A stretch of 64,000 nt of DNA. Origin: Candidatus Nitrospira nitrosa (GTDB lineage: Bacteria > Nitrospirota > Nitrospiria > Nitrospirales > Nitrospiraceae). A program made the translations under genes and the position numbers. Below the pieces are notes generated by a model. That model was given only the letters and a program-made list of their open reading frames with translations. It was not told the DNA's origin and did not search any database. The stretch covers positions 372,001-436,000 of the forward strand of contig NZ_CZQA01000009.1 of the NCBI RefSeq assembly GCF_001458735.1, read 5' to 3'. Below, piece by piece: positions 8,023 through 37,733 of the stretch (position 1 is its first letter; each line of letters begins with the position of its first letter).

Positions 8023-9050
8023 TGTCGCCCCTTGCTTGATTCGGCCATCGCCACCAAAATTTTTCTCGGTCCCTTGAACGGCGTGCGCCCATGCGCCGCC
8101 AGCATATTGTCCAGCATCAATACATCTCCTTCGTGCCACGGAAACTGGACCGCAAGACAGCGGTAGACATCACGGATTTCGTCCAACACCGTCGTTTCGA
8201 TCGGCGTTCCGTCTCCGTAGAAAGCTTGCCGAGGGAGATCCTCTTCGTTGACAAAGGACAGCAGTGCATCTCTCACCGCCGGTTCTAGATTCGACACATG
8301 GAACAAATGCGCCTGATTGAACCAGACCATTTGCAGAGTCAGCGGATGAACGGCAACGGCTTGGCAAACCTGGCGTGTGCGTAACTCTCCATCGGCCTTC
8401 CATTCATACCCGATGCCGGCTGACCGGCAATATTGTTCAACGGCCCTGCGATCCATCGTGTTGAACACCTTGTTCCACGGTACGTCCAGTCCGTTCCCGT
8501 AGTTGCGCACGTACATCACACCCTTCTCGATGAACCGTTCCCTGATGCGAGCCGGAATGTGTTGCAACACCTCACGGCTGTCCGCGATCGGAGTGTAACC
8601 CCCTTCCGAGGACGACTGGGAGCAATAGAACCAGATTTTCATCGGCCATTCGGTGGTATAGGCTTGTTCATTGTGCAACGGAATGTGCTGATGCGGCGGG
8701 TATTCCGTCGACGTATACACCTGGTTATGCACCTGGGAGCGAGGCGTCGATCCGAACTCATAGGACGCCAAGTCCGGCGAGATCATCCGGACAAACGTGT
8801 CGAAGTCGGCCACTGATTCGATCGGAAACCCCCTGAACAACACACCACCGACGGTGGAAAGATAGCTACTAATCATCCGGCCGACGACGTCCCGGTATTC
8901 AACCAACGATCGCATGTCTACAGGACTGATCACGACAGGAAGCAGCGTGTCCTGCGACAAGTAGTTCACACGACAAGACACCTGACTGTTTGTCCCTCCG
9001 CAGGTTTCTTCTATGGAAATGGGTGCAGCATGGTTATGATTGGCGTGCAT
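8019..9050 (-). CDS. SyrP-like Fe(II)/2-oxoglutarate-dependent hydroxylase (TauD/TfdA fold)
   Basis: The product has 343 residues. The iron-binding facial triad is visible as HNE in HNEQAYTTEWP and a distal His in AAHGRTPF, with the Arg after it likely to bind 2-oxoglutarate. The family (SyrP and relatives) hydroxylates the beta carbon of amino acids, usually Asp, while they are tethered to a PCP; in siderophores this makes an alpha-hydroxycarboxylate iron ligand. The substrate here is inferred only from the family; the modules that can be read call for Dab and Ser, so the target may lie in the synthetase that leaves the window. The start at 9050 has a strong GGGGAGG site; it overlaps the PPTase stop by 17 bp, and the stop overlaps the NRPS GTG, so the gene sits tightly inside the operon. 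Confidence 0.85.
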   Translation of the reverse strand: MHANHNHAAPISIEETCGGTNSQVSCRVNYLSQDTLLPVVISPVDMRSLVEYRDVVGRMISSYLSTVGGVLFRGFPIESVADFDTFVRMISPDLASYEFGSTPRSQVHNQVYTSTEYPPHQHIPLHNEQAYTTEWPMKIWFYCSQSSSEGGYTPIADSREVLQHIPARIRERFIEKGVMYVRNYGNGLDVPWNKVFNTMDRRAVEQYCRSAGIGYEWKADGELRTRQVCQAVAVHPLTLQMVWFNQAHLFHVSNLEPAVRDALLSFVNEEDLPRQAFYGDGTPIETTVLDEIRDVYRCLAVQFPWHEGDVLMLDNMLAAHGRTPFKGPRKILVAMAESSKGRQ

Positions 9051-9852
9051 GATAGACCTCCCCTTCTCCGCAGCTCGTGTCTGACCCCGCCGCCAAGACC
9101 TCTGCTGAATCCCACCCCCATTGGAAACAACGGATCCTTGCAGCATGACCTTCTGTCACCAGTGCTCCCGCATACTCGGACCACAAGGGAAGGGTCAGCA
9201 TGGCCCAGCGAGGATCTCTGATATCACCGTCTGCCGGAGTCGGAACCTGCGCCCCACACCGACCGGCCACCTCGATTTGATTCAACGGCAGGGTCAGACC
9301 GACTCCGACAGCCTTGATGTAGGCTTCCTTGAGCGTCCACCAGGAATAAAACGTATCGACCTGCGCCGGCCCGACCAAAGAAGACAATATTGCCTGCTCC
9401 CGTTTCGAGCAGGTGTACTCGGCCACGTCGTGCCACGACAATTCACGGTCGCGCCATTCAACATCGATACCGACCTCTCGATCGCGAGCGAAAGCACAGA
9501 GCACAAGAGCCCGCGCATGTGAAAGGTTGAAATGCATCGTTTCATTCTCCGACCGCAAACACGGCTTGCCGTGGCACCCGATCATGAATTGGATTGACGC
9601 CGGCGAACGGCCGAGATACCGCCCAAGCAAAATCCTCAGCAGGCCGTGCGCGTGCACGTACCGTCGACGATCTTCCTCAAACGCAAAGCGCGATGCGCGA
9701 GTCCGCTCTTCTTCGCTGAGCAACTCGTACAGAACGGATTCCGGCCATCGTTCCCGCAAGTCGGCGCACCAGACATGTACGTCTCCGTCCATGAGAGACG
9801 CCGGCGTCGGCCTCGTCGAATTATCGGGCCGTTCTGCAGTTATGGCGTTCAT
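9034..9852 (-). CDS. 4'-phosphopantetheinyl transferase, Sfp/Gsp type
   Basis: The 272-residue product transfers phosphopantetheine from CoA onto the serine of carrier domains, which activates every ACP and PCP of this pathway. Family motifs visible are GIDVEWRD (Mg-binding Asp and Glu) in the middle and WWTLKEAYIKA further on, with a conserved NLSHA segment before them. The length fits the Sfp family (about 220-270). The start codon overlaps the stop of the thioesterase gene as ATGA. Having a dedicated PPTase inside the biosynthetic operon suggests the cluster can work without a broad-range PPTase elsewhere on the chromosome. Confidence 0.93.
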   Translation of the reverse strand: MNAITAERPDNSTRPTPASLMDGDVHVWCADLRERWPESVLYELLSEEERTRASRFAFEEDRRRYVHAHGLLRILLGRYLGRSPASIQFMIGCHGKPCLRSENETMHFNLSHARALVLCAFARDREVGIDVEWRDRELSWHDVAEYTCSKREQAILSSLVGPAQVDTFYSWWTLKEAYIKAVGVGLTLPLNQIEVAGRCGAQVPTPADGDIRDPRWAMLTLPLWSEYAGALVTEGHAARIRCFQWGWDSAEVLAAGSDTSCGEGEVYHARQS

Positions 9853-30156: not shown

Positions 30157-32772
30157 TTACATAAACTCGAACTTCAGGGATCCGATCACCGTAAATGGTG
30201 CCCCGGTATAAACAATCTCCCTGAAATTCTGTGTACCGCTAAAGTAGCGCTGGTCTAACAGATTGGTAAAATTAATGGAGGCGAGAAGATTCGTGCGCGT
30301 GAAAAACTCCGGCTTTCTATAGTACACAGCGGCATCCATACGTGCGTATCCAGGGAGCTCAAACGAAGCCTGGCAATTGGCGGGATCCGTACATTGGAAC
30401 ACGCCGTTTCGCTTGCCCTGTGCAAACATCCCGAGACCTACACCAAGCCCTTTCAATGGGCCATCCTGCACGAAATAGGTACTCCAGACTCTCCCTTGGT
30501 GGAGCGCTGAGTTGGGAACCCGGCTTCCAACAAGGAATACGTTGTCCTCGGTGACTCGCGCGTCGGTATAGGCATAGTTCGCGATGATGTCCCAGCCGGG
30601 CAGAATTCTTCCCGCCACGTCGAACTCGATTCCCTGGCTGCGTTGCTCACCGGTCGGGACAGAGAACACGAATCCGCTGAGTGGATCGCCGGTTAAGACA
30701 TTTCGCTTCTTGATATGGAAGGCTGCAAGGGTCGCCCGCAACCGATTGTCCGGGCTCTGAAACTTCACACCTCCCTCAACGGCCTTTCCGCGCTCCGGCG
30801 CGAATGTCCCTCCAGTGGCGCTTCTGAGCCCTGGCTCTTGAGGGGCAAACGACTCTGTATAGTTGGCAAAGAGCGCGATCGGCTTCCATGGTTGATAGGT
30901 CAACCCAATCGACGGACTAAAGGCCAGTTCAGTTTGACTTGTATGGGTCGTATCCGGCGTGTCATCGGTCGGGCGATTCGTGAGATCCTGTTTGAAGTAA
31001 TCGAACCGACCGCCTCCGTGCAAGTGGAGATTGTCCAGGAGGCTCACGTGATCCCCAAAGTAGAATCCCAAGATGTTATTGACCGTCTTGCTATTGCTGA
31101 ATTTCGAGAGAGGCGTATCGAGGAAAAACCGGTTCCTAGTGTTGAAGATATTGATGAAACTAAAGGCTCCTGGCGTTGTCGTGTCACCGCCGAAATCACT
31201 GAACGCCGACTCGGATGCGACTTCTCGCCCCACTTCGACCCCGACAATCGTCTTATGTGCCAGTGGGCCGGTCGCGAATTTCCCGTGCAATTCATTTTGC
31301 AAGTAGTGGCTTTGGGTCACTGTGGGAATTACGAAGCGCGCCAGGTTCAGATTACCTTCGTTTTCGTCTCCGATCAGAAACCAGGATTCCATACTATTGT
31401 ATCGGCTACGAGCCACGGCCGCTCTAAACGCCGTGCGCCATCTGAACATATCATTGAAGTCGTGCAGGAATGTCAGCGTGGCCTTTCCATGATTCGTCTC
31501 GAGTTTCCGGCTAGGATCGCCCAGGAAATTATTAATGGGAATCGATGCCACGCCGCCGCCGATTGCCACCAGCCCACGATCGATCGGTCTATTGTCATAG
31601 AGATACTCGGCCTCAAAGCGAAATGTCGTCCGCGGTCCTAGTTCCCAACCAAAAGTCGGCGCGAGAAAGATCCGTTCCGAGCGTACACCTTCTCGATAAC
31701 TGCCGGCGTTTTCGTACATGCCATTGAATCGATACGTTAAAGTCTTGCTCTCATTCAGCGGCCCGCCGATGTCTATTTGTGGACGGTAGAGATCGTAATT
31801 GCCGAGGATCATTTCGGCTGCATAGTAGGGATCCTTTAACGGCGCCTTGGTGATTTGATGAATCATGCCGCCCGGATCCGATCGGCCATACAAATACGAC
31901 GGCGGGCTCTTCACCACTTCTATCGATTCGATGTTGATGATGTCCCGCTGTGAGCGCGAGCTGAAGAAACTGTCGTCGCGAAATCCATTCTTAAAGACAT
32001 TGAATTGCGATGCAAATCCACGAATCATGAAGTTACCACCCTGACCACCCTGACTACTGAATTGCGACACACCGCTCACGTTGAGCAACGCCTCATCAAG
32101 GCGAATGATTCGTTGATCTTCGATCACTTGCCTCGTGACGGTCTGGATGGATCGAGGAGTGTCGTGAAGTGGAACGGGGATTCTCAGTGCAGTGGAAGTG
32201 TCTTGAGCAGTATACGCAGAGTCCTTTCGCTCTCGTGTCTCTTTCACCATGACTTCAGGGAGCTTGATTGGTTTTTGTGAAACCGTCCCAATCGGCTCCC
32301 CTGGGGACTCTGGAAATACCTTCTTCTCTTCCGCCAATATCGGTGGTGCGACAGCCGGCGCAACAGCGCCCGGCACGAGCGTGACCGCTCTGGTCCCCGT
32401 CACACGGTAGGTCAGCCCTGTGCCGGCTAACAACGTCTGTAGAGCCTCTTCCGGCGTATGTGACCCGCTGATACCGGAGACACTCATGCCGGAGACAAGC
32501 TCCGACGGCACACTAACCTGCCAGCCCGTCACCTCCGCAAAGGAGTTTAACGCTGCCCCAAGTGGCTGGGCTGCGATGTTAAAGGTAGCCGTGGCACGCG
32601 GTGGCTCTAAGGTCACGCTGTCCTGGGCAAGGACCGTACTGGCTGCCATCGTGATGCAGGTAAAAATGAAGAGGGTCAAGCTCACAGGCTGCGCGCATGA
32701 GTAAGCCCACCGTGCTCTGCGGGCCTTGTCCGGTGCTACATATTTGTTTGTGTGCAGATCTCGTTGTTCCAT
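30157..32772 (-). CDS. TonB-dependent siderophore receptor with N-terminal signalling (STN) domain
   Basis: The 871-residue outer membrane receptor has, in order: a signal peptide ending near ASTVLAQ (about residue 50); an STN domain at about 60-135 (FNIAAQPLGAALNSFAEVTG, SGSHTPEEALQTLL); a possible TonB box LPEVMV near 175; a plug domain (RSIQTVT, MIRGF, YGRSDPGGMIHQI); and a 22-strand barrel ending in KFEFM. The STN domain is the type that contacts a FecR-like regulator, and fecR-fecI lie directly upstream. It is the likely receptor for the ferric form of the clustered product, although an exogenous siderophore cannot be excluded. A FecI-type promoter lies about 40 bases ahead of the start. 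Confidence 0.95.
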   Translation of the reverse strand: MEQRDLHTNKYVAPDKARRARWAYSCAQPVSLTLFIFTCITMAASTVLAQDSVTLEPPRATATFNIAAQPLGAALNSFAEVTGWQVSVPSELVSGMSVSGISGSHTPEEALQTLLAGTGLTYRVTGTRAVTLVPGAVAPAVAPPILAEEKKVFPESPGEPIGTVSQKPIKLPEVMVKETRERKDSAYTAQDTSTALRIPVPLHDTPRSIQTVTRQVIEDQRIIRLDEALLNVSGVSQFSSQGGQGGNFMIRGFASQFNVFKNGFRDDSFFSSRSQRDIINIESIEVVKSPPSYLYGRSDPGGMIHQITKAPLKDPYYAAEMILGNYDLYRPQIDIGGPLNESKTLTYRFNGMYENAGSYREGVRSERIFLAPTFGWELGPRTTFRFEAEYLYDNRPIDRGLVAIGGGVASIPINNFLGDPSRKLETNHGKATLTFLHDFNDMFRWRTAFRAAVARSRYNSMESWFLIGDENEGNLNLARFVIPTVTQSHYLQNELHGKFATGPLAHKTIVGVEVGREVASESAFSDFGGDTTTPGAFSFINIFNTRNRFFLDTPLSKFSNSKTVNNILGFYFGDHVSLLDNLHLHGGGRFDYFKQDLTNRPTDDTPDTTHTSQTELAFSPSIGLTYQPWKPIALFANYTESFAPQEPGLRSATGGTFAPERGKAVEGGVKFQSPDNRLRATLAAFHIKKRNVLTGDPLSGFVFSVPTGEQRSQGIEFDVAGRILPGWDIIANYAYTDARVTEDNVFLVGSRVPNSALHQGRVWSTYFVQDGPLKGLGVGLGMFAQGKRNGVFQCTDPANCQASFELPGYARMDAAVYYRKPEFFTRTNLLASINFTNLLDQRYFSGTQNFREIVYTGAPFTVIGSLKFEFM

Positions 32773-32879: not shown

Positions 32880-33863
32880 TCAAAACACAATGACGAGACG
32901 ATCAGCCAGGCTGATCGTTGAGAGAGGAACTGTCTGGAGGAGCAACGCAAGCGCACCAACGGGATCATCGACATTATAGGTGCCGGTCACCTTGATATCA
33001 CCGACCTGTCGATTCAGAAGTAGGATTCTGCCGCCATGATACCGCTGCAGTTCCTCGAGCACCTGGAGAAATGGAACGTTCTGAACCACCAGCCGACCCC
33101 GCAACCATGAGGAAGCAGTCGTGACATCGATGGCCTGCGGTCGGCCGAGATGATGTGGCTCCACCTGAATCTGCGATCCGGCAGTCACAGCTACTGGAGA
33201 GCCTGTCTTCGCTTTGGATTCAACTTCGACAGTACCTTCGAGGACTATAATGCGATCCCCACCTGGGTCGGTTCGTACGACAAATGCTGTTCCGACTGCT
33301 CGAACCGTGGTGCCCGCGCTCTCGACGAGAAACGGACGCTGCGCATCGTGCTGGACATTGAGAAACACTTCGCCCTTGAGCAAACGGATTCGGCGAACCG
33401 TTGCATCATACGAGAACGCGATGGCTGTCTGGGCATTCAGTGTGGCAATCGACCGATCGGGCAACTCAACGGTGCGCCGCTCTCCGGGCCCCGTGTGATA
33501 GTCGGCCTGCCAGCGGATGGAAATATCAAAATGTTCCGCGAGGAGCACCACGAAGACAAGGCACGCAGCTGTCAGGACGGGCCATCGCAGAGAAAACGCC
33601 GGCTTGGATGCAAGCCTGGACGGACTTGCCCCCGCCATGACAGCGGCAGCGGCAGTCAGCTCCGGACTGTCCCATACTCTAGAAACCGTGCGATAGATGA
33701 GGGCATGCTTAGGACTCTGCGCCTGCCAGGTCTCAAAGGCTTGACGGTCCTCTTGTGAGAGGCCACTGTTCCGCAAACGAATCACCCAGGCTACAGCCTC
33801 TTTCCTGAGCCGGGCTTCCTCTTCAGAGAGCACCATGTCGTCTGAATCATCCGTACGCTGCAT
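32880..33863 (-). CDS. fecR: FecR-type anti-sigma / transmembrane sensor
   Basis: The 327-residue product has a cytoplasmic N-terminal DUF4880-like helix region (AVAWVIRLRNSGLSQEDRQAFETW), one membrane segment near 95-112 (WPVLTAACLVFVVLLAEHF) and the periplasmic FecR domain (GERRTVELPDRSIATLNAQT, GEVFLNVQHDAQRPFLVES). The C-terminal STN-like segment (GTYNVDDPVGALALLLQTV) is usual. It binds the sigma factor and relays the signal from the receptor STN domain. The gene lies 75 bp after fecI. No good ribosome site is visible at 33863; a later ATG at residue 10 is possible. Confidence 0.93.
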   Translation of the reverse strand: MQRTDDSDDMVLSEEEARLRKEAVAWVIRLRNSGLSQEDRQAFETWQAQSPKHALIYRTVSRVWDSPELTAAAAVMAGASPSRLASKPAFSLRWPVLTAACLVFVVLLAEHFDISIRWQADYHTGPGERRTVELPDRSIATLNAQTAIAFSYDATVRRIRLLKGEVFLNVQHDAQRPFLVESAGTTVRAVGTAFVVRTDPGGDRIIVLEGTVEVESKAKTGSPVAVTAGSQIQVEPHHLGRPQAIDVTTASSWLRGRLVVQNVPFLQVLEELQRYHGGRILLLNRQVGDIKVTGTYNVDDPVGALALLLQTVPLSTISLADRLVIVF

Positions 33864-33938: not shown

Positions 33939-34532
33939 TCACTGATGGCGGTCGATAGCCTCCAGGGCCTCACAAGTTTGATCCAGCGCTCGCATCAGTA
34001 ACTTCTCCACCCCGCTCTCCGAAATACCCATCCGTACGGCAATTTCCTGATAGGAGTACCCACACACGCGGCACAGCACGAAGGCTTCACGGCTTCGGGG
34101 AGGAAGCTGTTCGATCGCCTGGAGGCACAAACGAAGCCGCTGCTTAGCGAGCAACTCCCGTTCCGGCGACGGCGCCTGACTGGGGACCGCCGTTGCGGCA
34201 TCCATGTCATCAAAGGCTTGGACGCTATTTTTTTCTCTCCGCAGATGGTCAATCGCCAAATTCGCGGCAATCCGATGGAGCAACGCACGCGGCTGCTCAA
34301 CCACCTGCGCGTCGCCGAGACGAAGCAACCGCACATAGGTATCCTGTACAAGGTCGGCAGCCGTTTCGTGCGACTTCACCATCCCGACAAGCCGACGCGT
34401 CAGTTCCTCACGATACTGTTGAAACAGCGAAGCGATCTGCCCATACGTGAGACGCAGTGCAGACCCAACATTGGAAATGTCTCGGGAAGCCATGAGTTGT
34501 GCTTCAGCGAGATGTGTGCTGTGCGTTGTCAT
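33939..34532 (-). CDS. fecI: FecI-type ECF RNA polymerase sigma factor
   Basis: The 197-residue product has sigma region 2 (ADLVQDTYVRLLRL, RALLHRIAANLAIDHLRR) and region 4 (LPPRSREAFVLCRVCGYSYQEIAVRMGISESGVEKLLMRA), as in iron-starvation sigma factors. It should direct RNA polymerase to the receptor promoter after release by FecR. The start at 34532 has GGGAG at fair spacing. Upstream lies a Fur-box promoter and a conserved hairpin element, so expression is probably repressed by iron. Four copies of a shared ECF-like motif in this window are candidate target promoters. Confidence 0.95.
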   Translation of the reverse strand: MTTHSTHLAEAQLMASRDISNVGSALRLTYGQIASLFQQYREELTRRLVGMVKSHETAADLVQDTYVRLLRLGDAQVVEQPRALLHRIAANLAIDHLRREKNSVQAFDDMDAATAVPSQAPSPERELLAKQRLRLCLQAIEQLPPRSREAFVLCRVCGYSYQEIAVRMGISESGVEKLLMRALDQTCEALEAIDRHQ

Positions 34533-34560: not shown

Positions 34561-34759
34561 CAATAAAAAAGCCCAGAGTGTCCTTCGACACCCTGGGCTC
34601 CGGTCTTCACTGACCTCTGGCCTCGTTTAATGGTGACTGTTATTTAAATGAGCTTTGCACCTAAGCCCGAAACTTCTTGATTAAACCGTCTCACCTAGAA
34701 GCATTGCGGCATATGGATCTATGATTTCAGATTCATCAGCACCTATTGCTAGTTGATAT
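34561..34759 (-). ncRNA. Candidate iron-responsive small RNA or leader attenuator, copy 1 (upstream of fecI)
   Basis: A transcript from the Fur-controlled promoter at 34766-34795 would run about 195 bases and end in a 12-bp hairpin with a U-tract, 29 bases before fecI. The last 64 bases (34561-34624) are repeated with 56 of 64 identities at 35921-35984, upstream of bfd. Pairs in the stem change in a compensatory way between copies (G-C to A-U, U-A to U-G), which supports selection on RNA structure. A second small hairpin GGUC-N6-GACC precedes it. It may be a free small RNA like PrrF or RyhB, or a leader that allows partial read-through into fecI. Confidence 0.55.
34571..34598 (-). terminator. 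Intrinsic terminator-like hairpin upstream of fecI
   Basis: In minus-strand RNA the stem GCCCAGGGUGUC pairs along all 12 positions with GACACUCUGGGC (one G-U pair) around a GAAG loop, followed by UUUUUUAUUG. Position and U-tract fit a Rho-independent terminator or attenuator. Confidence 0.8.
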
Positions 34760-34795
34760 AGGTTCTCAATATCATTGCCATGGCTCTGCTGTCAA
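34755..34795 (-). promoter_or_regulatory. Sigma70-like promoter overlapped by a Fur box, upstream of fecI
   Basis: On the minus strand TTGACA (34790-34795) is followed after 18 bases by TATTGA. The sequence GATATTGAGAACCTATATC (34755-34773) matches the 19-bp Fur consensus at 14 positions by hand count and covers the -10 region, so iron-loaded Fur would block transcription. The same layout occurs ahead of bfd. Confidence 0.6.
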
Positions 34796-34952
34796 CATCT
34801 ATTTTTAACTACCGCTGCATGAACACGAATAGGAGACTACTGCTGAGGATATTGATTATTCAGATAGCGCTGATACGACGAACTAAAGCACAAACAAGTC
34901 CTCGCGGCCCGAGCACAATAAGCCCATTCTGTACGCGTGTTTACATCCACAG

Positions 34953-35096
34953 TTACGAAATAGGCAGTCCCGCTTTTCCATTGACACTTGTCCATATCCA
35001 CATGACGACAATCGTCGACAAGAGAATACCGAGCGCCGTCGCCAAACTAATGAATATGGCCACATCATCTCTCGATTGAAGATAACGTTTGCTCAT
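34953..35096 (-). CDS. Small single-span membrane protein, 47 residues
   Basis: This short gene starts with ATG at 35096, preceded by GGGAGCG, and encodes MSKRYLQSRDDVAIFISL and onward through one hydrophobic helix (about residues 12-38, LATALGILLSTIVVMWIW) to a short polar end. I do not recognise a family. It lies among tiny iron-related genes in the same orientation, so it may be part of the uptake island. The function is unknown; overlapping frames in this segment look like shadows. Confidence 0.5.
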   Translation of the reverse strand: MSKRYLQSRDDVAIFISLATALGILLSTIVVMWIWTSVNGKAGLPIS

Positions 35097-35166
35097 CTTC
35101 GCTCCCTCATCAAACGTTCAGTCCCAGTTATACCGGCATGGTTGACCCCGGACCGCAACTGTTCGC

Positions 35167-35385
35167 TTAGTGACACACCATACTTGGATTCTGTTCTGCG
35201 ATCCCCAACGACTGCTCCGTAGATGGGCGCGCGACGATCACTGCCAAACGCTGTACGGACTCGGCAAACACAAGAAATTCGTCACGTGTGAGGTGGAGCG
35301 TGACTGCACCGCACGTCAGATGCAGTTTCCCACATCCACATAATACCAGCTTCATTGGACCATCCTTACCAAATGCCTTCTTCAT
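35167..35385 (-). CDS. Small cysteine- and histidine-containing protein, 72 residues
   Basis: The start at 35385 follows AGGAAG at good spacing; an ATG 6 codons upstream is less well placed. The sequence reads MKLVLCGCGKLHLTCGAVTL after about ten residues, then LTRDEFLVFAESVQRLAVIV. The CGCGKLHLTCG stretch, with three Cys and one His, could bind a metal. I believe similar small proteins occur next to iron-regulated genes in other bacteria, but I cannot name a characterised one. It sits between the membrane microprotein and the zinc-ribbon gene in the same orientation. Confidence 0.6.
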   Translation of the reverse strand: MKKAFGKDGPMKLVLCGCGKLHLTCGAVTLHLTRDEFLVFAESVQRLAVIVARPSTEQSLGIAEQNPSMVCH

Positions 35386-35433
35386 GCGAGTCTTCCTTTC
35401 CATAGAATGAGAGCGGAGTGATCCTCGGATCTG

Positions 35434-35595
35434 TTAGCAGCTCGATGTGGACAGGCGCACGACCAGACTTCGGAGTACGACACTCTCCTCGCAATACCAA
35501 CCGCAGTTGATACACCTCCACCGTTTTTCACGATAATAATCAGAAGCTCCTTCACCAATGATGTACCCGCCACATCGTCGACAGCTAATCTTCAT
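35434..35595 (-). CDS. Small zinc-ribbon-like protein, 53 residues
   Basis: ATG at 35595 follows a strong GGAGG site with 4-base spacing. The product starts MKISCRRCGGYIIGEGASDY and has CRRCGG followed about 20 residues later by CINCGWYCEE, two CxxC-type knuckles as in zinc ribbons or rubredoxin-like folds. The 3' half is less conserved-looking and ends in SSC. Its partner is unknown; a metal or RNA-binding role is only inference. A longer frame over the same DNA lacks these features and I regard it as a shadow. Confidence 0.6.
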   Translation of the reverse strand: MKISCRRCGGYIIGEGASDYYREKRWRCINCGWYCEESVVLRSLVVRLSTSSC

Positions 35596-35661
35596 AGTTC
35601 CTCCATAGTGGTTGTTGCGCTGACTAGCTTTCTCTCACCCCCTAAGCGACCGGGCTTCCCA

Positions 35662-35865
35662 TTATCGAACCAGGACTTCGACCGAAGACCTGATGCCGCC
35701 CTCATGAATACGTTGAACCATGGTTTCTAAATCGGACTCGCAACGCCCACAACAGGAGTCATCCAACCCCATCGCCTGTTTCATCGCCTCCGGGCAAGCT
35801 CCGAGTCGTGATGCCAGGCTGGAAAATTCAGACTCCTTAATTCCTCTACACAAACAGATGAACAT
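35662..35865 (-). CDS. bfd: Bacterioferritin-associated ferredoxin-like [2Fe-2S] protein
   Basis: The 67-residue product begins MFICLCRGI and has the four cluster cysteines in the Bfd pattern: CLC near the start and CCGRC later (GLDDSCCGRCESDLE). Bfd reduces iron in bacterioferritin and releases it into the cytosol under starvation; related BFD domains also act in reductases. I chose the ATG at 35865 because AAGGAG is spaced properly for it and overlaps the earlier ATG at 35871. A Fur-box promoter and a conserved hairpin lie upstream, fitting expression in low iron. No bacterioferritin gene is visible nearby. Confidence 0.88.
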   Translation of the reverse strand: MFICLCRGIKESEFSSLASRLGACPEAMKQAMGLDDSCCGRCESDLETMVQRIHEGGIRSSVEVLVR

Positions 35866-35920
35866 GCCCATCTCCTTGGCAAGTCAGTGACACCAGGCGC
35901 ATGGCCTCACAACCATGTCG

Positions 35921-36041
35921 CAATAAAAAAGCCCAAGGCATCCTTCGATACCCTGGGCTCCGGTCTGCAACGACCTCTGGCCTCATTCCTGCTCGTACAT
36001 GACAGGAGTGTTGCTTCCAATCACAACTATTTACTTGATAC
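35921..36041 (-). ncRNA. Candidate iron-responsive small RNA or leader attenuator, copy 2 (upstream of bfd)
   Basis: A transcript from the promoter at 36048-36076 would be about 120 bases and end in a hairpin with a U-tract, 55 bases before bfd. The terminal 64 bases (35921-35984) are the second copy of the element at 34561-34624. The upstream parts of the two transcripts are unlike each other, so the conserved unit is promoter plus 3' structure. Two Fur-regulated, terminator-ended copies in close order recall the PrrF1/PrrF2 pair of Pseudomonas; no sequence kinship is claimed. Confidence 0.55.
35931..35958 (-). terminator. Intrinsic terminator-like hairpin upstream of bfd
   Basis: In minus-strand RNA GCCCAGGGUAUC pairs with GAUGCCUUGGGC over 12 positions, two of them G-U, around a GAAG loop, followed by UUUUUUAUUG. 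It may also terminate transcription from the PepSY gene that ends at 36144. Confidence 0.8.
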
Positions 36042-36076
36042 GCTTTCTCAATATCATCCAGAGAAACGGCTGTCAA
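36037..36076 (-). promoter_or_regulatory. Sigma70-like promoter overlapped by a Fur box, upstream of bfd
   Basis: TTGACA (36071-36076) and TATTGA (36048-36053) are spaced by 17 bases on the minus strand. GATATTGAGAAAGCGTATC (36037-36055) matches the 19-bp Fur consensus at 13 positions by hand count and covers the -10 element. Confidence 0.6.
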
Positions 36077-36143: not shown

Positions 36144-37418
36144 TCAACGAATCAACAGAGTGTGTCGATTCACAGGCTTGGAGCAAGGATGTGCCTCTGC
36201 GCTTGGCCTACGGTTCTGCCGTCGATGCGCCTGCCGCTTGAGCCACCACACGCGCAACGCGGTGACGTACAGCACGAGGGGGATCAATCCAGCGAAGAAC
36301 ACAATCCAGCGGCCGATCATTCCGAACGCCTCGCCGTTATGCAGGGGAAAGAGCCAGGCCACAAAGGTGTGTCCCGCTGTGGACGTCCGCCAATCGCGCA
36401 CTTTGAGCACGGCCCCGCTGTATTGATCCAGCCAGACCATGCTGTTTCCCGCTGACTCGCGTACATCTCCGGGCCGATACATCATCATCTCGTACGCATC
36501 TACTGCCTCATGAGGAATGCCGATGTACGTGATCCGGCCATCCGGAAACAGGTGCTGGGCCAGTTTGACCGCTTGCTCGGCGGAAAGAGGAGGGGTCCCC
36601 GAGGCCGGATGGGACTGCACGGCCCCGTCCTCGTCTGATTCGTCGACCGGGGAAAACGCGGACACCAGCGGGATCACATAGCTCGGGAACGCCAAATACA
36701 CACCCGTGAACGCGAGCACGGTCAGTACGATCGCGCTGTATGCCCCAGTGACTTTGTGCCACTGATATTGTCGACGGATCCGGCTGCCGCCCGTGACGGG
36801 GAGAAACGCCTGCCGGACCTTCCCCGAACGAGGCCACCAAAGAAACAGGCCCGTGCCGATCGAGATTAAGAGCAAGATGGCGACACAACCCACAAGAGTC
36901 CGACCGAGTTCGTCGATCAATAAGGATTCATGCAACTCATAGATGAACGAGACAAGGTACGTGCCCCATTCGCGATCCCGACCTAAGACGGACCCGGCGT
37001 AGGGATCGATCGTGACCAGATACCACCGAAAATGGTCGAGCTTATCGGTCGGTACTTTGTGCCAAGCTCTCACCACCTCACGCTCATGAGCTGGCAACTC
37101 AAGGCTGTCCAACCAACCACCGGCAGGAACCGTGGCCTGCGCCGTCGCAACTACTTCGTTCAGGGGCTTGTGAGGGCCGGAGCCGCTCGTTGTGAGCTGG
37201 GCTGGATTTAGCCATTCGTCGATGGCTTTGTAGAACACCAGGAAACTGCCCGTGAGACTCATCAGGACGAACAGCGCCCCCCCGAACAGTCCAAGGTACA
37301 GATGTGTGCGTAACCAAACCCCTCTGAGAGAGCACCGAAGTATGGTTTGAACTGGAAGCGACACTTTACCCTCGCCCAGTGGAACTATTACCGTTGGAGT
37401 GCTCGATGCAGATGGCAT
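36144..37418 (-). CDS. PepSY-associated transmembrane protein (siderophore/iron reductase-type)
   Basis: The roughly 424-residue inner membrane protein has four membrane segments in the PepSY_TM arrangement: THLYLGLFGGALFVLMSLTGSFLVFY, then VGCVAILLLISIGTGLFLWWP, then AIVLTVLAFTGVYLAFP, then MIGRWIVFFAGLIPLVLYVTAL. Periplasmic loops lie between, and conserved histidines (THLYLG, ELHESLL, QWHKVTG, PLHNGEAFG) are likely haem or metal ligands. Relatives such as FpvG take part in reducing ferric siderophore in the periplasm, which fits this island. I preferred the ATG at 37418, which has AGGAAG upstream; a start at 37454 is possible. The gap 37419-37547 shows nothing else. Confidence 0.88.
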   Translation of the reverse strand: MPSASSTPTVIVPLGEGKVSLPVQTILRCSLRGVWLRTHLYLGLFGGALFVLMSLTGSFLVFYKAIDEWLNPAQLTTSGSGPHKPLNEVVATAQATVPAGGWLDSLELPAHEREVVRAWHKVPTDKLDHFRWYLVTIDPYAGSVLGRDREWGTYLVSFIYELHESLLIDELGRTLVGCVAILLLISIGTGLFLWWPRSGKVRQAFLPVTGGSRIRRQYQWHKVTGAYSAIVLTVLAFTGVYLAFPSYVIPLVSAFSPVDESDEDGAVQSHPASGTPPLSAEQAVKLAQHLFPDGRITYIGIPHEAVDAYEMMMYRPGDVRESAGNSMVWLDQYSGAVLKVRDWRTSTAGHTFVAWLFPLHNGEAFGMIGRWIVFFAGLIPLVLYVTALRVWWLKRQAHRRQNRRPSAEAHPCSKPVNRHTLLIR

Positions 37419-37547
37419 GGCGTTATCGCGCTTCCTCATGAACATAAGTCGCATCGCGATGGCAGAACGACAACGCCCACGAATCCAGCAATCACGCAGT
37501 CGGCTGTAGGCTAAGTTGGGAGATTGAACAATGCGTAGCTGAACAAC

Positions 37548-37733
37548 TTACTGACGGTCACCAGGATCCAGGCCAGCAGGCGGTATCCCTTGGATGGCTG
37601 AGTGATGAATGGCGACGAAGCGTCCGCATCGGGTGCACTTGATAACGAGGTCGTCCCCCTGCCAGCGCGCCACAAGCTTGCCGCACCGACATCGGACATC
37701 GACACTGGTCCTTACTGAGGCTCTCCCCCGCAT
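37548..37733 (-). CDS. Com-like zinc-ribbon protein, 61 residues
   Basis: ATG at 37733 follows GAGGAAGG at good spacing. The product contains CRCGKLVARWQGDDLVIKCT followed by RCGRFVAI, which is the CxC/CxxC zinc-ribbon pattern of the Mu-like translational regulator Com. Such short genes also occur outside phages. No other phage gene is near, so an adopted or remnant gene is possible. Its relation to iron uptake is unknown. Alternative frames over the same segment show no family features. Confidence 0.6.
   Translation of the reverse strand: MRGRASVRTSVDVRCRCGKLVARWQGDDLVIKCTRCGRFVAIHHSAIQGIPPAGLDPGDRQ

Follow-up and report, generated by a model that had tools for sequence, protein, structure and literature searches.

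A stretch of 64,000 nucleotides from Candidatus Nitrospira nitrosa (contig NZ_CZQA01000009.1; hereafter the window) contains two copies of a 64-bp repeat, each standing between a Fur-like promoter and an iron-related gene, and this raises the question of whether the copies are small regulatory RNAs, switches in the leaders of the genes behind them or scattered repetitive DNA. Comparison across genomes identifies the repeats, almost certainly, as members of a structured RNA family. The association of this element with a gene for a Com-like zinc-ribbon protein suggests an undescribed protein-controlled switch, and its genomic pattern makes the Com-like protein the probable partner of the element. 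Furthermore, we consider it rather likely that the element is a cis-acting transcription attenuator whose terminator is relieved by this protein.

The two window copies and their RNA family

Both copies lie on the minus strand, and coordinates refer to the window. The copies are identical at 56 of 64 bases, and copy 2 was recovered from the organism's own genome with copy 1 as query (E = 1.1e-16). Their parts are listed below.

34567..34624 (minus): element copy 1, 58-nt core; 80.4 bits with model R1, 74.4 bits with model R2; precedes the gene for an extracytoplasmic function (ECF) sigma factor (fecI-like)
35927..35984 (minus): element copy 2, 58-nt core; 80.3 bits with R1, 74.9 bits with R2; precedes a bfd-like gene
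34571..34598 (minus): terminator hairpin of copy 1, 12-bp stem and GAAG loop; U6 tract at 34565-34570
35931..35958 (minus): terminator hairpin of copy 2, 12-bp stem and GAAG loop; U6 tract at 35925-35930
35956..35984 (minus): GGCC box, small hairpin GGUC/GACC and CCRGAGCCC box of copy 2, in the minimum-energy fold of the truncated RNA
34754..34774 (minus): Fur-like box TGATATTGAGAACCTATATCA, covering the -10 region of promoter 1
36036..36056 (minus): Fur-like box TGATATTGAGAAAGCGTATCA, covering the -10 region of promoter 2

The 66-nt element folds with -32.9 kcal/mol in copy 1 (z -5.18 against shuffles) and -32.1 kcal/mol in copy 2 (z -5.15), and the stem differences between the two preserve base pairing. 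Promoter 1 reads TTGACA (34790-34795)-N18-TATTGA (34766-34771) with its -35 element at 34795, and promoter 2 reads TTGACA (36071-36076)-N17-TATTGA (36048-36053) with its -35 element at 36076, both on the minus strand; the RNAs predicted from promoter to repeat end measure about 199 and 121 nt, respectively. A Fur-like box, TGATATTGAGAA-N4-TATCA, overlaps each promoter, and a search of the genome yielded one Fur gene. From these motifs we infer that Fur acts on the window promoters, and Fur control of both copies is likely. The fecI-like gene starts 34 nt and the bfd-like gene 61 nt after the respective core. A preliminary description of this locus, made from the sequence alone, had reported the two copies with their 56 shared bases, the stem, loop and U-tract, the TTGACA-N17/18-TATTGA promoters with overlapping Fur-like boxes and the position upstream of fecI and bfd, all of which we could confirm.

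The element is composed of a GGCCA box, a hairpin of 3-4 bp, a CC-R-GAGCCCA box and an intrinsic terminator. Model R1 was derived from 32 copies, aligned without fitting to a model. Across its 17 pairs, 98.3% of the cells are consistent with pairing, the real alignment exceeded all 500 shuffles in each of five pair measures and all slid controls were lower, which supports the earlier proposal that the pair-preserving stem differences reflect selection on the RNA. Double-sided changes occur in 7 of the 17 pairs (0/500 shuffles as high). Model R2 comprises 75 copies (73 distinct) that were aligned to R1; in this alignment, which is therefore fitted to the earlier model, double-sided changes are present in 12 of the 17 pairs among the distinct copies, again with 0/500 shuffles as high. 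The GGCCA and R-GAGCCC columns are near-invariant in the 75 copies, the intervening hairpin and the upper terminator stem covary, and the terminator loops differ in length and sequence.

A covariance-model search of relatives, which the preliminary description had recommended, recovered the family in 68 of 79 Nitrospira genomes with R1 (E ≤ 0.01, including diverged copies without Fur boxes) and likewise in 68 of 79 with R2 (E ≤ 1e-4). At E ≤ 0.001, R2 matched 178 of 235 genomes of the order, in 25 of 37 genera; at E ≤ 1e-4 it matched 124 of 395 genomes of a phylum sample, seven of them outside the order. The genome of origin holds five copies according to R1 and four according to R2 at E ≤ 1e-4. 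In line with the earlier remark that no described family has this sequence, Rfam 15 gave no match at the gathering score in the window, nor in six phage, Clostridia and Chloroflexota loci, and among the papers listed in searches of open-access PMC literature none appeared to describe the element or chromosomal Com-like regulation. Rfam matches below threshold were judged to be chance; the best one near copy 2 was NsiR1 with 21 bits against 39. A scattered repeat of the repetitive extragenic palindromic (REP) type without Fur boxes had been named as what would refute the initial idea. Many copies indeed lack a Fur-like box, but the copies are few per genome and linked to one gene family, and a REP-like or mobile repeat is disfavoured by the low copy number together with the direction of the copies toward gene starts. 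Three copies (L016:5399-5456, L018:531-589 and L018:5771-5828) have broken boxes, with no Fur-like box found upstream, and are probably decayed.

Association with a Com-like zinc-ribbon gene

One gene of the window is central to the argument:

37548..37733 (minus): Com-like zinc-ribbon gene, 1.6 kb upstream of copy 2 on the same strand; start codon read by eye

The family to which its product belongs consists of zinc ribbons of about 60 aa, related to Com of phage Mu, which binds RNA and activates translation. The window protein matches Pfam Zn_ribbon_Com with E = 6.6e-4 and is called Com-like here because its score remains under the Pfam cut-off. It also matches PHROG 6417, annotated as translational regulator (4.2e-5). 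Among 49 relatives, PHROG 6417 was matched by 48 and PHROG 13819 (gpCom) by 43. A comparison of the family profile with phage Com by hhalign gave a probability of 97.5 and E = 5.2e-12 over 32 columns, the phage profile being composed of five proteins, one of them a 30-residue fragment. Solved structures yielded no confident match to the family (best E 0.06).

According to an in vitro selection study (PMC6483171), Com of phage Mu is an RNA-binding protein that recognises CC(N)2-3GAG, with GA being crucial; selected RNAs carried two motif copies flanking a stem of 3-4 nt, and hairpin loops were preferred, although an earlier contrary result is also cited there. The same study describes Com as acting on translation and thought to melt an inhibitory stem in the mom mRNA. 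The system described here resembles Com/mom in that a small zinc-ribbon protein, RNA-binding by profile match, would be paired with a putative RNA target upstream of the controlled gene, that CC..GAG motifs flank a short stem, and that an RNA stem would need to be opened. It differs in that this stem is an intrinsic terminator, that the first zinc knuckle is CxC instead of the CxxC of Mu Com, that the motif spacer is 1 nt instead of 2-3 nt, and that the system is chromosomal with several putative targets per genome among iron and redox genes, whereas Mu Com targets mom.

Linkage was assessed by setting 106 com-like hits of the genus against 150 listed element matches (the element total being at least 150). 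Within 5 kb of a listed element lay 90 of the 106 hits and within 10 kb 93, and all of these 93 were on the same strand. Seen from the element, 127 of the 150 had a com-like hit within 10 kb, four had one farther away and 19 were on contigs without one. In the 32 genomes with a single listed element, the com-like gene was within 10 kb in 27, elsewhere in one and missing in four. Furthermore, a search that did not select the partner by eye clustered all open reading frames (ORFs) of 49 element-centred regions, some of which come from the same genome, and the clusters were named by reading their sequences. By profile clustering, com-like genes were the most frequent (36 of 49 regions), followed by TonB receptors (26) and TonB (25), with the rest of the 30 largest clusters reaching at most 20.

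The association extends beyond the genus. In a sister family, the R2 element was present in 20 of 20 fetched regions and a com-like gene in 14, always on the strand of the element. Across the order, the com-like gene occurs in 192 of 235 genomes; 167 genomes have both, 11 the element only, 25 the com-like gene only and 32 neither (Fisher 4e-15, phylogeny ignored). Outside the order, five of the seven element-positive genomes contain the gene, compared to 16 Com-positive ones among about 252 (one-sided Fisher 1e-5, phylogeny ignored); in the other two element-positive genomes (G235 and G386) no Com was found at 1e-6. None of the co-occurrence counts is corrected for phylogeny.

A second com-like gene occurs at a further locus of the genome of origin (G000:C1:54808-61424, L141). 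Behind it lie two elements separated by about 3.1 kb, one preceding an HD-domain gene and the other following a gene with a weak match to di-haem peroxidases. Such element pairs at similar spacing recur in relatives.

Leader position, predicted alternative fold and proposed mechanism

The elements are very probably leader elements. This claim rests on a strict rule (ATG, Shine-Dalgarno-like site and at least 60 codons, within 100 nt), as a loose ORF rule is often satisfied at random positions. Among 99 copies flanked by 800 nt in both directions, the strict rule found a gene start downstream of 55 and on the other side of five; of 990 random positions, 80 satisfied it. A mechanical ORF search, which covers one strand, found in 110 contexts a downstream start within 70 nt in 67 and within 100 nt in 78; the 100-nt limit was also reached at 434 of 990 random positions and on the opposite side of 25 of 99 copies. 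The distance to the start codon is often 15-70 nt, and several copies are located inside operons.

Genes of at least nine kinds follow, for example for ECF sigma factors, Bfd, ExbB, TonB receptors, HD-GYP proteins and di-haem peroxidases. Pfam assignments for 84 of the 110 downstream ORFs comprise HD_5 (20), Sigma70_r2 (11), TonB Plug (8), ExbB (6), AraC-type HTH_18 (4), CCP_MauG (4), DUF5122 (3), Fer2_BFD (2), multicopper oxidase (1) and others. Five of the listed elements are followed, at a distance of 29-92 nt, by the com-like gene itself. The placement of the copies ahead of many kinds of genes, often close to the start codon, points towards a cis-acting attenuator. Of the 110 copies preceded by 200 nt or more of sequence, 34 have a Fur-like box within 250 nt upstream, where shuffles would give 0.2, and none has one downstream; such boxes accompany 26 of 39 copies with R = G and eight of the remaining 71. 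Fur is thus one input rather than a defining feature of the family. Between the Com sub-type and the R (G or A) of the CCRGAG box there was a trend only.

In order to examine the fold, we used the 61 of 110 leaders with a gene start 14-70 nt downstream, 59 of which contain GAGCCC. In the full leaders, the terminator stem had a probability above 0.9 in 59 of 59. When the leaders were truncated just past GAGCCC, a helix of GGC and GCC around the small hairpin (P1) exceeded a probability of 0.5 in 50 of 59, and P1 and the terminator are predicted to be mutually exclusive. In copy 2, GGC (35980-35982) can pair with GCC (35956-35958) in a fold of the truncated RNA that excludes the terminator. The GGC/GCC pairing is retained in 105 of 111 distinct copies and replaced by a compensatory GAC/GUC in one; since GGC sits outside the terminator, this retention counts for the alternative fold. 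On paper, GGCC could also pair with the 3' arm of the terminator (GGCU). Two features of an attenuator are hence found, namely a terminator between the promoter or upstream gene and the controlled gene and, by folding prediction, an alternative fold that excludes it.

We propose the following mechanism. By default, the nascent RNA would fold into the intrinsic terminator ahead of the gene and transcription would halt. Before synthesis of the 3' arm, the small hairpin could be enclosed by a helix between GGC of the first box (GGCC) and GCC of the second (CC-R-GAGCCC), which would expose the facing strands CARM and RGA and consume the lower 5' arm of the terminator. As CC-A-R-M and CC-R-GAG face each other across a stem of 3-4 bp, with the second box within the terminator arm, we infer that the Com-like protein binds the element RNA: the zinc ribbon, whose gene usually lies nearby in the same orientation, would hold the GGC/GCC form, block the terminator and permit read-through into fecI, bfd, exbB, HD-GYP and other genes. 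That the sign of control is antitermination is a reasoned guess, towards which we lean. For the window copies, low iron would start the transcript at the Fur-type promoter and the Com-like protein from the same cluster would permit its passage.

A protein-stabilised leader fold that overlaps and excludes a terminator is the principle of antitermination of the ribonucleic antiterminator (RAT)/BglG-LicT type; protein and RNA are unrelated to those considered here, where the partner is a zinc ribbon. The ANTAR/EutV system (PMC3369931, PMC8934654) likewise forms a leader-RNA regulon with a small hairpin before or overlapping the terminator, but the terminator loops of the present element vary in length and sequence.

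Several observations weigh against this interpretation. The window protein falls short of the curated Pfam threshold (19.5 versus 22.9 bits), and only 25 of the 49 relatives match Pfam Com at E ≤ 0.05. The agreement with the selected Com motif is partial, as CC(N)2-3GAG in a hairpin loop is replaced by CC-R-GAG with a 1-nt spacer in a predicted internal loop. P1 is a helix of 3 bp that is mismatched in five of the 111 copies (two of them in the sister family) and is not favoured in nine of the 59 truncated leaders, and the fold scores of two truncated RNAs are modest (z -1.81, that of copy 2, and -1.53). The Shine-Dalgarno sequence is mostly unpaired in 27 of the 61 folded leaders, so that translational control stays compatible with the folds. 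Concerning the partner, 13 of 106 com-like hits have no listed element within 10 kb, either because it is farther away or because their contig lacks one, 11 of the 235 genomes of the order have the element without the gene and 25 the gene without the element, and in one genome (G429) a search out to about 9 kb from Com yielded no element. Plain BLAST clustering splits the com-like ORFs into clusters of 21 and 14 regions, with TonB receptors and TonB at 24 each. Moreover, the co-location may arise in part from shared iron operons and common descent.

The same partner could also work with the opposite sign or at another level, by stabilising termination in a negative feedback or by controlling translation, and we assign this a modest chance. 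Mu Com controls translation of mom according to PMC6483171, a second box pair in two further stretches (L251 and L252, see below) is fused to a hairpin near a Shine-Dalgarno sequence without a U-tract, and elements often stand immediately after com, which would suit feedback. However, the modelled copies hold a terminator and precede genes for sigma factors, receptors and other proteins, which exceeds the needs of a feedback on com alone.

Small RNAs of the PrrF/RyhB type combine a Fur promoter with a strong terminator. The preliminary description had offered twin small RNAs of this kind or attenuators in the leaders of fecI and bfd; we retain the attenuator and no longer regard small RNAs as the first choice, given the 76 of 110 copies without a Fur-like box and the 55 of 99 before a gene start. 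RNAs of about 121 and 199 nt that end at the U-tracts and base pair in trans would agree with the Fur-like promoters and strong terminators of the window copies, and a terminated leader could additionally act in trans, but the many copies lacking a Fur-like box, their orientation to closely following genes, a position that is in many cases not that of a free-standing RNA, and the conserved pairing partner of the GGCC box within the element make this explanation very improbable. We regard it as likewise very improbable that the element senses a ligand as a riboswitch, the terminator serving as its expression platform and the com-like gene being a mere operon neighbour. A riboswitch would fit the conserved unpaired boxes that stand ahead of a terminator in the leaders of iron and redox genes; the candidate aptamer, however, is only about 28 nt long with a variable loop, the downstream genes are mixed, and the com-like gene, RNA-binding by homology, is the commonest neighbour by profiles.

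Occurrence in other phyla and further genes of the window

In two genomes from another family of the class (G355 and G413), about 9 nt separate the end of a com-like gene from the element that follows; the ORFs of the G355 stretch, labelled by reading without profile runs, also include a Fur-like protein, an FTR1-like permease and a porin. A DNA-only pattern scan of a collection of 84,980 species returned 63 stretches, 30 from Nitrospira/Nitrospirae records and 33 others. In three of these 33, from Chloroflexota (L082, L135 and L140), the stop codon of a com-like gene (E about 1e-14) precedes the same-strand element by 5 nt. Viral contigs, scanned likewise, contributed 28 stretches; combined with 17 of the 33 others, they yield 47 pattern matches in phages and Clostridia. 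In 39 of these 47, the element is overlapped or shortly preceded by a zinc-ribbon ORF of the same orientation; of the eight without such an ORF, three have at most 209 nt of upstream sequence and five have none. The phage and Clostridia zinc ribbon is Cys_rich_KTR (Pfam PF14205) in the four cases tested (E 3e-8 to 8e-12), and its likeness to the Com-like profile is weak (probability 59.6).

As the pattern scans select for the boxes, box conservation is no evidence in the phage set, and the evidence there is limited to the neighbouring gene, the covarying stems and the terminator. Double-changed pairs number two in the phage hairpin (41/500 shuffles as high) and four in the terminator (3/500 as high). 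The 5' part of the phage element, in contrast to that of the Nitrospirales system, is also coding, so its conservation may be driven by the protein. The exact DNA pattern also matches unrelated sequence, namely tandem repeats in L099 and L114.

These cases may, with odds somewhat below even, represent an old cross-phylum pair: a portable terminator element of the form GGCC-hairpin-CCRGAGCCC together with a small zinc-ribbon protein that binds RNA, which would be Com-like in Nitrospirota and Chloroflexota and Cys_rich_KTR in phages of Clostridia. Nitrospirales would then have expanded the pair into a regulon that controls iron and redox genes by antitermination on top of Fur, and phages would use the pair between zinc-ribbon and packaging genes. 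Mu Com is known as a phage protein controlling mom. If the pairing of element and protein is true, Com-like proteins would be chromosomally encoded regulators that in some genomes serve several targets, within an order that includes nitrite-oxidising and comammox bacteria; a new RNA family would be added, and a function would be proposed for unannotated zinc-ribbon genes, perhaps including Cys_rich_KTR.

In Clostridia phages (L254-L281, L080, L086, L095 and similar), the 3' end of the Cys_rich_KTR gene overlaps with an RNA of similar architecture, which stands upstream of ORFs read as HNH endonuclease-like or small terminase subunit-like. A second copy of the box pair, without terminator or U-tract, is present in L251 (about 9645-9698) and L252 (about 8807-8860, minus strand); its hairpin GAGCCC..GGGGCTC stops 3 nt short of the Shine-Dalgarno sequence that belongs to the following gene, and this copy could be a translational version of the element switch.

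The iron cluster of the window comprises, in minus-strand order, exbB- and exbD-like ORFs (labelled by reading their sequences), a TonB-type protein, a small ORF, the com-like gene, a PepSY-TM gene, promoter 2 with element 2 and the bfd-like gene, small cysteine-rich ORFs, and promoter 1 with element 1, followed by the genes for the ECF sigma factor, FecR and a TonB receptor. Its assigned genes are:

36144..37454 (minus): PepSY-TM protein, between the com-like gene and copy 2; Pfam PepSY_TM 4.3e-64
35662..35865 (minus): bfd-like small protein behind copy 2; ORF with a CxC..CCGRC pattern as read, no Pfam match
33939..34532 (minus): ECF sigma factor (fecI-like) behind copy 1; Pfam Sigma70_r4_2 1.5e-19, Sigma70_r2 2.7e-11
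32880..33863 (minus): FecR-type regulator; Pfam FecR 2.6e-22
30157..32772 (minus): TonB-dependent receptor; Pfam TonB_dep_Rec_b-barrel 8.5e-56

Two small ORFs of the cluster have relatives elsewhere. A conserved protein of 78 aa (LCGCGKLHLTCGAVTLHLTRDEF; 35167-35403, minus strand), for which no match was found in Pfam, has relatives in L012, L073 and L222 and is encoded behind several elements. A 53-aa zinc-ribbon ORF (CRRCGG..WRCINCGW; 35434-35595, minus strand) has relatives in L014, L017 and L030, which are located immediately behind an element in iron clusters.

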